A stretch of 64,000 nucleotides of DNA from Microbacterium sp. TNHR37B (GTDB taxonomy: Bacteria > Actinomycetota > Actinomycetes > Actinomycetales > Microbacteriaceae). Of the stretch, positions 20,246-24,962 are shown in pieces. The notes under the pieces are model-generated. The model was not told where the DNA came from. It did not search any database and was given only the letters and a program-made list of their open reading frames with translations. The position numbers and the translations under genes are program-made. The stretch covers positions 310,001 through 374,000 of the forward strand of contig NZ_LQGV01000001.1 in NCBI RefSeq assembly GCF_001620065.1. Reading direction: 5' to 3'. How positions within the stretch are numbered: the stretch's first letter is position 1; each line of letters starts with the position of its first letter.

Positions 20246-21163
20246 CTACAGCAGCCAGGTGATCAGCAGCAGCACGGGAACGCATCCGAGGGTCGTCACG
20301 AAGACGGTGTCGCGGGCGATCGGCTCGCCGATATCGAAGCGTTGCGCGTAGTTGAAGACGTTCTGCGCGGTGGGAAGCGCGGCCAAGACGGTCACGATGA
20401 GCACGTCGGCGGGGGAGAGGTGGAGCAGATGCGCGGCGACCGCCCAGGCGACGATCGGCATCACCGCGAGCTTGAGGACGCTCGCGACGAGTACGTCGCG
20501 ACGGCGACCGGGCACGCCGAGGACCCGCTGCCCGTGCAGCGAGATGCCGTAGGAGATCAACAGCACGGGCACGCATGCGTTCGCGATCAGCAGCAACGGC
20601 TCGATCGCGACCGGAGGAAGTGCGATCCCCGACACCGACACGAGCATGCCGAGCACGGACCCGACCACGATCGGGTTCGTGGCGGTTCGGCGAAGGATCG
20701 CTCCCGGCCGTCGCTGCCCCGTGGAGACGGCTTCGAAGATCGCCATGCTGATCGGAGTGAAGATCACGAGCTGCATGAGGATGACGGGCGCGGGGTACGC
20801 CGCGCTGCCCAGCAGATAGAGCGAGAGCGGGATGCCGATGTTGTTCGAGTTCACCTGACCCGACGACAGGGCGCCGATGAGCGTCTCACCGACGCTGCGC
20901 CGCCACCAGAGGCGTGCGACGAGCACATAGATCGCGAACACCGACACCGCCGCGATCGCCGATACCGGCAGGAGCGCGGAGAAGAGGGTGTGCACGTCGG
21001 CGCGTGCGAGGACGACGAACAAGAGGAAGGGCGACAGGACGAAGAAGGTGAGTCTTCCCAGCACGTGACGCGCGTGGGGCCCGAGGAGATCGATCCGTCC
21101 GAGCAGCCAGCCGAGAGCGATGGCGAGACCCACGACGACGAAGCCGGTCAGTGCGTCCCACAT
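20246..21163 (-). CDS. AEC family transporter
   Basis: A 305-residue membrane protein with about ten transmembrane helices split by a loop near residue 150, typical of the auxin efflux carrier family in bacteria. Features include the conserved NSNNIGIPLSLYLLG segment in helix four and NACVPVLLISYGISL in the second half. Bacterial members move small carboxylates or similar compounds; the substrate here is not predictable. Divergent from the GNAT gene with only 62 bp between them. Confidence 0.88.
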   Translation of the reverse strand: MWDALTGFVVVGLAIALGWLLGRIDLLGPHARHVLGRLTFFVLSPFLLFVVLARADVHTLFSALLPVSAIAAVSVFAIYVLVARLWWRRSVGETLIGALSSGQVNSNNIGIPLSLYLLGSAAYPAPVILMQLVIFTPISMAIFEAVSTGQRRPGAILRRTATNPIVVGSVLGMLVSVSGIALPPVAIEPLLLIANACVPVLLISYGISLHGQRVLGVPGRRRDVLVASVLKLAVMPIVAWAVAAHLLHLSPADVLIVTVLAALPTAQNVFNYAQRFDIGEPIARDTVFVTTLGCVPVLLLITWLL

Positions 21164-21169
21164 GGTTCG

Positions 21170-21175
21170 AGCCTA
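21170..21175 (-). promoter_or_regulatory. -10 element for leaderless AEC transporter mRNA
   Basis: TAGGCT on the minus strand ends 6 nt before the ATG at 21163. Confidence 0.6.
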
Positions 21176-21213
21176 GGGCCAGCGGCGAGTCGCTTCGCGC
21201 GCGGCCGAAGGAG

Positions 21214-21219
21214 CAGACT
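21214..21219 (+). promoter_or_regulatory. Possible -10 for leaderless GNAT mRNA
   Basis: CAGACT ends 6 nt before the ATG at 21226. The first base departs from the TAnnnT pattern, so this is a weaker case. An AAGGAGC lies 12 nt before the ATG as an alternative ribosome site. Confidence 0.4.
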
Positions 21220-21225
21220 GTGCTT

Positions 21226-21900
21226 ATGGACCTGACCGCCGTCTTCCCGCCGTTCGGGCTACGCGTAGAGGCGGGGCCGGTGATCCTCAGGCCCATCACC
21301 GACGATGTGCTTCCCGCGCTCATCGACCTCGCCGTCCGTGGAATCCACGATCCCGACGTCATGCCCTTTCACTATCCCTGGACCGATGCCCCCGTCGACG
21401 AGCTTCCTCACCAACTCGCGCAGTATCACTGGGGTACGCGAGCCCGGTGGTCGCCCTCGGCGTGGTCGCTCGAGTTCGCCGTGGAGTACGAGGGCACTGT
21501 GGTCGGGACACAGGGATTCTCCACGCAGCAGTACCTCACGACCCGGACGGGCGAGACGGGATCGTGGCTCGGACGTGAACACCACGGGCGCGGCGTGGGA
21601 ACCAGGATGCGTCAGGCGATCTGCGCCTTCGTCTTCGACCATCTCGATGCGGTCGAGGTGACATCCGGAGCGTTCGTCGACAACGCCGCGTCGCTCGCGG
21701 TGAGCCGCAAGGTCGGTTACCGCGACGATGGACGTCAGCGTCTCGCGCGACGTGGTGAGGCCGCGGTGTCGCGACGTCTCGTGCTGACCCCAGGCGATTT
21801 CGTCCGCGGCGAGCCGATCCGGGTGAGCGGCGCCAAGGAGTTCCGTCGCTTCATCGGTCTCGACGCTGCGCGTGATGACAACGAGCCTAATAGCCGATAA
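21226..21900 (+). CDS. GNAT family N-acetyltransferase (RimJ/RimL-like)
   Basis: A 224-residue acetyltransferase of the GNAT fold. The N-terminal strand reads VILRPITDDVLPAL, and the acetyl-CoA loop is represented by WLGREHHGRGVGTRMRQA, with the R/Q-x-x-G-x-G/A core as GRGVGT. Members of this branch acetylate N-termini or small molecules; the target is unknown. The ATG at 21226 is preferred because the frame upstream overlaps the AEC start. Confidence 0.88.
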   Translation: MDLTAVFPPFGLRVEAGPVILRPITDDVLPALIDLAVRGIHDPDVMPFHYPWTDAPVDELPHQLAQYHWGTRARWSPSAWSLEFAVEYEGTVVGTQGFSTQQYLTTRTGETGSWLGREHHGRGVGTRMRQAICAFVFDHLDAVEVTSGAFVDNAASLAVSRKVGYRDDGRQRLARRGEAAVSRRLVLTPGDFVRGEPIRVSGAKEFRRFIGLDAARDDNEPNSR

Positions 21901-21910
21901 TGCACATTAT
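21897..21910. promoter_or_regulatory. AT-rich inverted repeat, possible operator
   Basis: ATAATG-CA-CATTAT overlaps the GNAT stop codon and lies 62 nt before the SRPBCC promoter hexamer. It stands out in DNA of about 70% GC and looks like a site for a dimeric regulator such as a MarR or GntR type. No regulator gene is adjacent. Confidence 0.35.
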
Positions 21911-21922
21911 GTCAGTTTGTTG

Positions 21923-21946
21923 GGCTGACCGGCTGACGGGCTGACC
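21923..21946 (+). repeat. Three tandem 8-bp repeats upstream of the SRPBCC promoter
   Basis: GGCTGACC, GGCTGACG and GGCTGACC follow one another without gaps. They end 25 nt before the -10 hexamer, just upstream of where a -35 would fall. They may be protein-binding direct repeats or a slippage tract. Confidence 0.6.
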
Positions 21947-21971
21947 GGCGCGCTCCCCGAGACCTGTTCGG

Positions 21972-21977
21972 TAGTGT
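21972..21977 (+). promoter_or_regulatory. -10 element for leaderless SRPBCC mRNA
   Basis: TAGTGT ends 6 nt before the GTG at 21984. Confidence 0.6.
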
Positions 21978-21983
21978 CGAGGA

Positions 21984-22616
21984 GTGACCTCCCGCGCCAT
22001 CTACGTGGAGATCGAGATCTCCGCTCCGGTCGAAGAGGTGTGGAGACGGACGCAGGACGCGGCGCAGCATTCGCGCTGGGACATTCGTTTCTCGCGCATC
22101 ACCCCGGCGGAGCCAGATGCGTCCGGTGTGCAGTCGTTCTCGTATGCGCGACGGGTTCCCTTCCACACGATCGAGGGTGTCGGCGTGAGCATCGGTGAGA
22201 GATCCCGCCCCGACGGCAGTCGGACCTCGGCGCTCAAGTTCTTCACGGGTGACCGGATCTCCCCGATCCGTGCGGGGCGCGGATACTGGCGCTATGTGCC
22301 GTCGGGTGACGACCGCACACGTTTCATCACAGGCTATGACTACACGCCCGGGTGGGGGCGCTGGGCCGATGTCGTGGCTCGACCCGTCTTGGCCTGGGCC
22401 ACGGCGTGGAGCTTCGATCGGCTGAGGATCTGGATCGAGCGCGGAGAGGAACCGGAGGCCTGGCCCCTGCACAGCGCGCTGTGGTTCTGGAACCGGCGGC
22501 GTCCGCGCGCGGCACGGTGCCGCCGTTCCCCCGAAGGCGGCTCCCGGCGCGGCGATCATCTGAGTGACGCGCCGGCGACGCTATCCTCCCTCCACTCCCC
22601 TGAGACGGCGCGATGA
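21984..22616 (+). CDS. SRPBCC-fold protein
   Basis: A 210-residue protein with an N-terminal SRPBCC/polyketide-cyclase-like domain (residues about 3-155), starting IYVEIEISAPVEEVWRRTQD, the usual first strand and helix of this ligand-binding fold. The last 40 residues are rich in Arg and look disordered. SRPBCC proteins bind lipids or other hydrophobic ligands; no ligand or enzyme function is evident here. Its stop overlaps the next ATG (ATGA), so the DUF4166 gene is translationally coupled. Confidence 0.75.
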   Translation: MTSRAIYVEIEISAPVEEVWRRTQDAAQHSRWDIRFSRITPAEPDASGVQSFSYARRVPFHTIEGVGVSIGERSRPDGSRTSALKFFTGDRISPIRAGRGYWRYVPSGDDRTRFITGYDYTPGWGRWADVVARPVLAWATAWSFDRLRIWIERGEEPEAWPLHSALWFWNRRRPRAARCRRSPEGGSRRGDHLSDAPATLSSLHSPETAR

Positions 22617-23281
22617 CGTCGATCTTCGAACGCGTGATGGGCGAGGACTTCACCCGGCTCCACCCCCAGCTCCAGCGACGCTTCGGCGTCGGTCTCGATC
22701 GCGGCGAGGCCTGCATCGGACGTGGCATCATGACGCAGATTCGGCGAGGACCGTGGTGGACGGTGCCGTTCCTCCAGATCGGGCGACTCCGCAACATCCT
22801 GATCCCGGACACGGGCACCGACGTCCCTTTCGTCATCGAGAACTATCCCTATCTCGATCCGTACGGCCGGGAGACCGTGACCTTCGTCCGCGAGTACGCG
22901 ATCGGCGCGCGGCGGCGGCGGTTCGACGCCACGATGGTCCACGACGCGGGCCGCATCGTCGATTATCTGGGAACTCATCAGCACCTCGCCGTGGATCTGG
23001 ATCTCGCGGTCGACGAGGACGGCGCGCTCGTGTTGACCTCGCACGCGCAACGCTTCTACGAAGGGCCGGTCGCCTTCGCCTTCCCGCTCCTCTTCAGCGG
23101 CCGCGCGCGCTTGCGCGAGTGGTTCGATGACACCGAGGAACGATTCCACGTGGACCTGGAGGTGCACAACGAGCGCTTCGGCTTCCTCTTCGGCTACCGC
23201 GGGTCGTTCACCTGCGAGTGGACGCCCGCATCGCACATTCCCGCGCGCCTGCTCCCCCGCCGTCACGAGCGACGCACCTAG
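22613..23281 (+). CDS. DUF4166 domain protein
   Basis: A 222-residue protein that matches DUF4166 over nearly its whole length: SIFERVMGEDFTRLHPQLQ at the N-terminus, GGIMTQIRRG-like strand, and FPLLFSGRARLREWFDD towards the C-terminus. In other bacteria this domain may be fused to a saccharopine-dehydrogenase-like enzyme; its function is unknown. Its start overlaps the SRPBCC gene, so the two probably act together, perhaps on a lipid-like ligand (inference). No signal peptide or membrane helix is clear. Confidence 0.82.
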   Translation: MTSIFERVMGEDFTRLHPQLQRRFGVGLDRGEACIGRGIMTQIRRGPWWTVPFLQIGRLRNILIPDTGTDVPFVIENYPYLDPYGRETVTFVREYAIGARRRRFDATMVHDAGRIVDYLGTHQHLAVDLDLAVDEDGALVLTSHAQRFYEGPVAFAFPLLFSGRARLREWFDDTEERFHVDLEVHNERFGFLFGYRGSFTCEWTPASHIPARLLPRRHERRT

Positions 23282-23314
23282 GGCGTCGCGAACGACCGCT
23301 CGCCGCGGGGTGGG

Positions 23315-23320
23315 TAACGT
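23315..23320 (+). promoter_or_regulatory. -10 element for leaderless MFS transporter mRNA
   Basis: TAACGT ends 6 nt before the GTG at 23327. Confidence 0.6.
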
Positions 23321-23326
23321 GGACTC

Positions 23327-24649
23327 GTGACCGCTTCGCCCGCTCCCCGCGTCGCCGGAGCGCGGGCCTGGCTCATCTGGACCGTCGGCGTGGCGGCGTA
23401 CGTCCTCGCGATCACCAACCGAACCTCGCTCGCGGCGGTCGGTGTGGACGCCGCCGAGCGCTTCCAGGCCGATGCGGCGACGCTGTCGTTGTTCGCCGTG
23501 GTCCAGCTTGCGATGTACGGCGGCATGCAGATCCCCGTCGGGGTTCTGCTGGATCGCTACGGCGCACGTCCGATCATGACGGCGGGGATGATCCTCATGG
23601 CCGCCGGGCAGCTGACGATGGCCCTCTCCCCCAGTGTCGGCGTCGCCATCCTCGCCCGGGTTCTGCTCGGCGCCGGCGATGCCGCGGTGTTCCCGGGCGT
23701 TCTGCGGCTCATCGCCCTCTGGTTCCCGGCACAGCGCGCGCCGCTCATGGTGCAGCTGACCGGCATCGTCGGTCAGGGCGGGCAGCTCCTGGCTCTCGTT
23801 CCCTTGGCGGCCTTCCTCCACGCCACGTCCTGGAGCATCGCGTTCGGCAGCATCGCAGGTCTCGGGGTGCTCTTCGCCGTCCTCGTCTTCGCCCTCATCC
23901 GCAATCGACCTGCGGCCCTCGCCGCCGACGTCAGCGTCAACACCGACACCGGGGCGATCCGCGTGGTGACCTCGTCGGTGGACACCGGCGTGGGAATCCG
24001 CGCCGCGTGGGCGCATCCCGGCACCCGGTTGGCGTTCTGGTCGCACTTCACGACGCCGTTCGCCGGCTCCGCCTTCATCCTCCTCTGGGGGATGCCGTTC
24101 CTCACGGCGGGAGAGGGACTCTCGCGCACGGCCGCCGGAGCGGTGATCTCCACGTATGTGATCGTCGGCATGGCGCTGGGGCCGGTCATGGGTGAGCTCT
24201 CCCGCCGCGTTCCCCACCTGCGCTCGCGTGTCCTCGTGCTGCCCGCCATCGCCGTGCAGCTCATCGCGTGGGTAGCGGTGATCGTGTGGCCGGGTGCTGC
24301 GCCGCACTGGCTTCTGTACGGGCTCGCGATCGCGCTGGCGATGGGCGGTCCGGCCTCGATGATCGCCTTCGATCACGCCCGCACCCACAACCCCGCTCAC
24401 CGCCTCAGCACGGCAACGGGCCTCACGAACGCCGGAGGGTTTCTGGCAGCGCTGATCGCGGTCTTCGCGATCGGGATGGCTCTGGACCTCCAGGGGGCGG
24501 GCACCCCGGCGACCTACTCGATGGATGCGTTCCGTCTCGCCTTCCTGACGCAGATCCCGTTGTGGGTCATCGGAGCGGTCTTCATCGTCATCGAGCGATC
24601 CCGGACCCGCGCGCACATCGGATGGACCAAGCCGCCGCGGAGACGCTGA
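23327..24649 (+). CDS. Major facilitator superfamily transporter
   Basis: A 440-residue membrane protein with about twelve transmembrane helices. The loop 2-3 signature is GVLLDRYGARP, close to the MFS motif A, and RVLLGAGDAAVFPGVLRL in helix four resembles the nitrate/sialate and anion-cation symporter branch. The substrate cannot be told. It stands alone, ends in a strong terminator and converges with the DUF6458 gene. Confidence 0.9.
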   Translation: MTASPAPRVAGARAWLIWTVGVAAYVLAITNRTSLAAVGVDAAERFQADAATLSLFAVVQLAMYGGMQIPVGVLLDRYGARPIMTAGMILMAAGQLTMALSPSVGVAILARVLLGAGDAAVFPGVLRLIALWFPAQRAPLMVQLTGIVGQGGQLLALVPLAAFLHATSWSIAFGSIAGLGVLFAVLVFALIRNRPAALAADVSVNTDTGAIRVVTSSVDTGVGIRAAWAHPGTRLAFWSHFTTPFAGSAFILLWGMPFLTAGEGLSRTAAGAVISTYVIVGMALGPVMGELSRRVPHLRSRVLVLPAIAVQLIAWVAVIVWPGAAPHWLLYGLAIALAMGGPASMIAFDHARTHNPAHRLSTATGLTNAGGFLAALIAVFAIGMALDLQGAGTPATYSMDAFRLAFLTQIPLWVIGAVFIVIERSRTRAHIGWTKPPRRR

Positions 24650-24654
24650 CGAAG

Positions 24655-24688
24655 GAGAGGGCGACCGCGCCGTGGCGGTCGCCCTCTC
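24655..24688. terminator. Bidirectional terminator between MFS and DUF6458 genes
   Basis: GAGAGGGCGACCGC at 24655-24668 pairs perfectly over 14 bp with 24675-24688, with a 6-nt loop, followed by a C/T-rich run. Confidence 0.8.
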
Positions 24689-24701
24689 CTCTCCCCCACC
24701 G

Positions 24702-24962
24702 TCAGACGGCGGTGGAGTCTCCTGACGTGCTGGTCTCGGTGCGAGTCACGCGTTCCCCGACCGCCGGATCGACGGTACGGGTTACGGACTCGGTGGAACG
24801 ACGGCGCGCCAGCAGGATGATGCCGATCACGAAGATGACCGCTCCCGCGCCCATCAGGATGTAGCCGATCATGTCGAGGTCGACGTACTGCACGTCCACG
24901 TCGACGGCGAACACGAGGATCGCTCCGATCACGAACAGGGCGATTCCGGCACCGATGCTCAT
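24702..24962 (-). CDS. Small two-helix membrane protein (DUF6458-like)
   Basis: An 86-residue protein: MSIGAGIALFVIGAILVFAV forms the first transmembrane helix, a second runs from about residue 31 to 53, and the polar C-terminal tail is rich in Thr and Ser (TRTVDPAVGERVTRTET). This layout fits the actinobacterial DUF6458 family of unknown function. ATG at 24962 with TGGAG in front. It stands alone between the MFS terminator and the SGNH hydrolase; 24963-25052 shows nothing clear. Confidence 0.75.
   Translation of the reverse strand: MSIGAGIALFVIGAILVFAVDVDVQYVDLDMIGYILMGAGAVIFVIGIILLARRRSTESVTRTVDPAVGERVTRTETSTSGDSTAV

Follow-up and report, generated by a model that had tools for sequence, protein, structure and literature searches.

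A conserved START-DUF4166 gene pair of Microbacterium and its relatives, a candidate two-protein module for a lipophilic ligand

Two overlapping genes of Microbacterium sp. TNHR37B (genome of 3.5 Mb), one for an SRPBCC protein and one for a DUF4166 protein, raise the question whether a protein of known fold and a member of an uncharacterised family act together and, if so, on what kind of molecule. They lie in the window, that is, the whole stretch of 64,000 nucleotides that was analysed, and both reading frames were confirmed at the positions that a sequence-only reading of this DNA had given them (Table 1). The 4-bp overlap that the same reading had described was borne out, as the ATGA can be read directly in the sequence, and we infer that translation of the two genes is coupled through it. 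The codon usage of the SRPBCC frame scores weakly in a simple gene caller, which dropped the frame at a stricter threshold and called it at a looser one; its conservation nevertheless shows that it is real. A Pfam scan of the neighbours returned an acetyltransferase of the GNAT type and two transporters, one MFS and one Mem_trans, with no obvious partner enzyme among the genes scanned. The earlier statement that the pair has no enzyme partner nearby holds at this locus, but some DUF4166 genes of other subfamilies adjoin TIGR01777-type oxidoreductases.

Table 1. Features of the gene pair and its surroundings, in window coordinates
Feature	Position	Strand	Details
-10-like box TAGTGT	21972..21977	+	6 nt 5' of GTG 21984; putative leaderless promoter of the pair
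SRPBCC/START-family gene	21984..22616	+	210 aa, GTG start; PF10604 Polyketide_cyc2 match
Helix-grip (START-like) domain, aa 1-153	21984..22442	+	secondary structure of the predicted model; long helix 126-153
Basic RPRAxRC-type tail motif	22500..22541	+	3' of START domain; from alignments of homologues
ATGA stop/start overlap	22613..22616	+	4 bp common to the SRPBCC and DUF4166 genes
DUF4166 gene, class A	22613..23281	+	222 aa, ATG start; PF13761 match
TAACGT box of downstream MFS gene	23315..23320	+	6 nt 5' of GTG 23327

We asked how often the two genes adjoin in other genomes. Scanning 84,980 species genomes yielded at least 584 confirmed relatives, of which the best 80 were kept as named loci. 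They come from Microbacterium, which supplies the top matches, and from Curtobacterium, Frigoribacterium, Cellulomonas, Isoptericola, Georgenia, Nocardioides, Microlunatus and other genera. An SRPBCC homologue was found directly upstream of a class A DUF4166 gene in 79 of these best 80 loci; it was matched only partially in L075, L084 and L135, and L122 had no SRPBCC match. In L032, L034 and L037 the SRPBCC gene is detected by tblastn although it is absent from the gene maps. Because the named loci are the best matches, this evidence bears on the class A subfamily and not on DUF4166 at large. An overlap of exactly 4 bp was present in 70 of 77 orthologous pairs, the count covering those of the 79 loci with an SRPBCC match in which both gene ends were clear. 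The recurrence of both the pair and the overlap across loci argues against a chance arrangement.

The same question was put to samples drawn at the level of the family, the order and the phylum. DUF4166 is present in 77 of 199 family genomes, where we call the high-scoring genes (at least 183 bits) class A and the lower group class B. Class A accounts for 22 copies in 21 genomes (the second copy, in G089, is split), and an SRPBCC gene whose product is 48-65% identical to that of the window lies directly upstream of all but one of them, the exception being G045. The reverse search gave the reciprocal result: SRPBCC occurs in 20 of the 199 genomes, a patchy distribution, and all 21 copies adjoin a class A DUF4166 gene. 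The order sample showed SRPBCC in 25 of 198 genomes and next to DUF4166 in 24; both genes are at contig ends in G725, and SRPBCC is reduced to a 30-residue match in G684 and G698. Class A (at least 187 bits in this sample) was found in 26 genomes, of which only G601, whose DUF4166 gene lies at the end of a contig, was without SRPBCC. DUF4166 genes of 142-173 bits had no SRPBCC gene alongside in the stretches examined in the order sample. Rathayibacter (G045, L038, L122) carries DUF4166 without SRPBCC. For the phylum sample, the SRPBCC profile matched 5 of 396 genomes (2 strongly, 3 weakly) and the class A DUF4166 profile matched 6 of 396, including G473 without SRPBCC beside its DUF4166 gene; this sample is too sparse for a count.

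The surroundings of the pair vary by genus, with some arrangements common to relatives (L037, L041 and L042; L040 and L043), and no third gene accompanies the pair in common among the mapped loci. Individual loci showed further arrangements. In L031, L036, L039, L040 and L043 the pair is immediately followed by another DUF4166 gene, a divergent one, which makes a three-gene unit. L041 (G192) has a stop codon within the DUF4166 frame and an open SRPBCC frame, possibly a decaying copy. G089 holds two copies of the pair (L069 and L046) with nearly identical SRPBCC proteins, and one of its DUF4166 matches is split into two frames. Across the 58 pairs present in both protein alignments, mean identity was 63% and 72% for the two proteins, and the pairwise distances of SRPBCC and DUF4166, compared without a species-tree control, were correlated with an r of 0.78, versus at most 0.15 in 500 shuffles. 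What this correlation shows is co-inheritance and not contact between the proteins.

The pair was also found on plasmids and in a second phylum. Seven plasmid records carry DUF4166; six of the seven genes are paired with SRPBCC, and all six SRPBCC homologues found in plasmid records lie within such pairs. Three plasmids of Streptomycetaceae have SRPBCC upstream of DUF4166. A Niallia plasmid has the order SRPBCC with a C-terminal DoxX_3 domain, full-length DUF4166 and YndJ (PF14158), and over 166 aa the Niallia START domain and the window protein share 45% identity. A homologue of the Niallia START protein is followed by DUF4166 and YndJ in two Bacillus plasmid records, and a Haloarcula plasmid has DUF4166 and YndJ without SRPBCC. 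Family searches of the control genome of B. subtilis returned both DUF4166 (PF13761) and YndJ (PF14158); the first two genes of the SRPBCC-DUF4166-YndJ order are presumably yndG and yndH of this species. DoxX_3 and YndJ are membrane families. The window thus shares its two genes, in the same order, with the Bacillota, but in the Bacillota YndJ comes third and, in Niallia, DoxX_3 is fused to the START domain: YndJ has no match in the TNHR37B genome, and DoxX_3 has none in the window START protein or in that genome.

Two further connections were rejected. By eye, the C-terminal half of YndJ could be taken for a degenerate DUF4166, but profile comparison gave probabilities of 0.2% and 1.3%, and only shuffled controls came up when the kinship was sought with hmmsearch. 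DoxX_3 as a general partner was dropped, being found in only 3 of 199 family genomes, one of them above the cut-off. One paper names SRPBCC and DoxX on separate proteins (PMC8638967), and in a paper on biocontrol yndJ is taken for a gene of a lipopeptide synthetase (PMC8147159). A Bacillus protein annotated as YndJ matches PF14158, which contrasts with the latter reading.

Taken together, adjacency (79 of the best 80 loci), reciprocity (21 of 21 copies), the recurring overlap (70 of 77 pairs) and the occurrence in Bacillota support the joint function that had been proposed from the overlap, and the two proteins very probably work together. The adjacency is not confined to one species, as the pair recurs across genera and in a second phylum.

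How the pair is expressed was analyzed from the upstream regions. Of the 87 upstream regions of orthologues, 50 have a TANNNT sequence at -12 or -13 and 70 have [TC]ANNNT there, both being rare at other positions; in the comparison set, 550 further genes predicted at the named loci, the corresponding counts were 92 and 112. The 87 regions, which include copies from one strain, comprise 72 of the 77 overlap-counted named loci (owing to length limits), 14 of 20 other SRPBCC loci, in rows that we selected, and the window itself. A generic scan for sigma-70 promoters and terminators over 21100-24750 found neither type of site, and for this reason the leaderless promoter is argued from spacing and comparison. 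A published study (PMC3160421) describes TANNNT about 12 bp 5' of the start as a mark of leaderless genes, and puts such genes at about one fifth of genes in Actinobacteria. Because the position of the box is conserved and the mark is a known one, the leaderless promoter that the sequence-only reading had assigned to the pair is likely, with TAGTGT 6 nt from the GTG and the box kept at -12 or -13 in many orthologues, and such an arrangement would be ordinary. The MFS gene at 23327-24649 is probably leaderless too, with a separate promoter. The transcription unit is probably a bicistron of SRPBCC and DUF4166, and since the MFS gene has a box of its own, the unit may be bounded there.

Next, we considered the folds of the two proteins. 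The SRPBCC protein matches PF10604 at E 3e-8 (34.4 bits, cut-off 27.4), and its AlphaFold model (pLDDT 92.4) has the helix-grip START fold; most structural matches cover about residues 1-156. The closest solved structure is the TcmN aromatase/cyclase (ARO/CYC), with Z 15.9 and an rmsd of 2.6 over 146 residues at about 16% identity, and Foldseek gave E 5e-7. A sequence search against the PDB returned no convincing relative for this protein (best E 0.27). From 169 SRPBCC sequences, 111 distinct ones with a conserved helix motif were retained; 18 of these carry a hydrophobic stretch C-terminal to the START domain, including sequences from Streptomyces, order-level relatives and Bacillota. In several actinobacterial homologues a basic motif similar to that of the window protein comes after this stretch; in the window protein the motif immediately follows the domain, without a hydrophobic stretch or membrane segment. 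A loose pattern for the basic motif with a cysteine was matched by 10 of the 18 sequences with the stretch and by 53 of the 93 without it. By analogy, the window START protein may be bound peripherally to the membrane, as a relative of proteins that are anchored in it.

The DUF4166 protein matches PF13761 over its full length (positions 1-184 of 184) at 202 bits against a cut-off of 23 (E 9e-60). Its AlphaFold model (pLDDT 89.3, pTM 0.85) combines helices at the N-terminus with about ten long strands of antiparallel type. The best structural match was a DUF3598 protein (2o62; Z 10.0, rmsd 3.9, 134 aligned residues), and Rv0813, nitrobindin, THAP4, BFA1, the CpeS lyase and the spirocyclases OssO and OlmO were matched at Z 8.9-9.8. 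Rv2717c was also among the best matches and falls, with nitrobindin, THAP4 and Rv0813, at Z 9.3-9.8. Fatty-acid and retinol-binding proteins gave Z 7-8. Foldseek ranked nitrobindin best at E 4e-4, whereas no convincing relative was found by sequence among PDB chains (best E 0.15). According to the guidance for the comparison tool, a best Z of 7-8 is typical where there is no clear match; with Z up to 10.0, the model falls among the calycin-type barrels at the fold level, above the usual background. We read DUF4166 as a probable calycin-type beta-barrel on the basis of the model. The fold match by itself is weak because a transmembrane barrel made by design is among the matches, at Z 8.7, and it does not establish the function of DUF4166; enzymes are present among the fold relatives of both proteins. 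Many polar residues are invariant in the 19 aligned class A sequences, but only N77, R93, D117, S143 and Y195 are polar and kept at 85% or more in 74 DUF4166 sequences from all subfamilies.

Class B DUF4166 proteins, about 25-34% identical to that of the window, have other neighbours. A class B gene is directly followed by an intact TIGR01777-type oxidoreductase gene in 5 of 19 loci (L054, L056, L059, L060 and L064; L061 was unmapped). The two genes overlap by 4 bp in L060, L064 and also L062, where the oxidoreductase is shortened; shortened or partial copies lie 3' of the DUF4166 gene in L062 and L070. The oxidoreductases of L060 and L064 match TIGR01777 above the cut-off, and that of L056 has Epimerase and DUF1731 domains. 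These units share with the window the PF13761 family and, in some cases, tight coupling, but their partner is a downstream oxidoreductase, whereas that of the window gene is an upstream SRPBCC protein. A different SRPBCC gene (PF03364; 6343-6783 on the minus strand) lies 54 bp downstream of DUF4166 in L221, from a more distant actinobacterium (G493), which suggests that these two folds were paired separately there. With oxidoreductase or PF03364 neighbours in these other loci, some DUF4166 genes therefore have other close partners.

The reading that we prefer is that the pair is a fixed two-protein module acting on a single lipophilic ligand close to the membrane, likely as a binding or transfer pair; we hold it to be a little short of evenly balanced. 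The START-fold protein would bind a small lipophilic molecule, at the membrane or close to it, the DUF4166 barrel would receive or hold the same molecule, the two would be made together by translational coupling on a leaderless bicistronic mRNA, and they may be in direct contact. Because of both predicted folds the ligand is probably hydrophobic, membrane association of the START protein is suggested by the hydrophobic, membrane-like segments that some of its relatives carry after the domain, and the activity would be binding or transfer, not catalysis. The lipid or polyketide handling that the sequence-only reading had proposed is no more than compatible with both modelled folds. A more specific form, in which DUF4166 is an unrecognised calycin-type barrel family with a close partner (the START protein at this locus, YndJ or an oxidoreductase in other settings) and the pair is an undescribed two-carrier relay passing a membrane lipophile directly from the START pocket to the barrel in Gram-positives, is put forward as a doubtful but possible extension.

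The same structural matches could instead indicate a small enzyme for a metabolite made elsewhere, in which the START protein would be a TcmN-like aromatase/cyclase and the barrel would serve as its second subunit, for cyclisation or for binding. TcmN being the closest solved START structure (Z 15.9), the matches of the barrel to OssO and OlmO (Z 9.5 and 8.9) and the many invariant polar residues of class A fit this possibility, but identity to TcmN is only about 16%, just the five polar residues named above are widely kept, no polyketide synthase was seen among the Pfam-scanned neighbours and the neighbourhoods vary between genera; we consider it unlikely. It is quite improbable that, within a redox system, the pair presents the ligand to a TIGR01777-type NAD(P)-dependent oxidoreductase with its gene at another site of this genome: the class B gene order, with its 4-bp overlaps and the two matches above the cut-off, would agree with this, but an intact oxidoreductase directly follows in just the 5 of 19 class B loci, and no TIGR01777-type gene is among those mapped around class A pairs. 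The patchy occurrence (20 of 199 genomes), the differing neighbourhoods and the plasmid homologues could be explained if the genes travelled together as a mobile unit without a joint biochemical function. The order kept in two phyla, the frequent overlap and the identity of both proteins over the 58 pairs, however, indicate selection on both genes, and make the mobile unit a very unlikely account.

A role in haem or tetrapyrrole binding, with DUF4166 as a nitrobindin-like protein loaded or unloaded by the START protein, would fit the matches to nitrobindin, THAP4, Rv0813 and Rv2717c, the Foldseek result for nitrobindin and the structural closeness of a phycobiliprotein lyase. An rmsd of about 4, however, speaks for a shared fold only, and the GFLFGYxGxF stretch of the last strand, near which we take the haem-binding histidine of nitrobindin to be located, has no histidine in any of the 19 aligned class A sequences; the chance of this role is slight. 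As for a toxin-antitoxin pair of the Rv0909/Rv0910 kind with the SRPBCC protein as the toxin, TA_Rv0910_toxin was the sole NCBIfam match of that protein up to E 1, but at E 0.35 and 10.9 bits against a cut-off of 100, and the partner is a 222-aa DUF4166 protein, so that we regard the idea as next to negligible. Toxin-antitoxin or anti-phage defence was likewise unsupported in a PADLOC search, which gave no match up to E 1.

Returning to the preferred module for a lipophilic ligand, we compared it with known systems. TcmN-type aromatase/cyclases have the helix-grip (START/Bet v 1) fold in common with the window START protein, but the latter has a conserved tail after the domain and a fixed DUF4166 partner, and no polyketide genes were recognised among its Pfam-scanned neighbours. 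Nitrobindin, THAP4, Rv0813, FABP, CRBP, DUF3598 and CpeS appear to share the beta-barrel architecture with the modelled DUF4166, which differs from them in that no PDB chain resembles it convincingly by sequence and that the GFLFGYxGxF stretch of its last strand is free of histidine in the 19 aligned sequences. The terms DUF4166 and PF13761 were not mentioned in the literature searched, a scope that leaves most subscription papers and preprints outside, and this agrees with the earlier view of the pair as undescribed.

The pair is conserved and, as a combination, undescribed: it joins a known fold to an uncharacterised family. Two families without a known function become a single testable unit in Actinomycetota and Bacillota, and B. 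subtilis, a model organism, has DUF4166 and YndJ. If a lipophile were indeed transferred from a START pocket to a beta-barrel, the pair would be an unusually simple bacterial system for handling lipids or quinones, and such a relay would give DUF4166 its first function.
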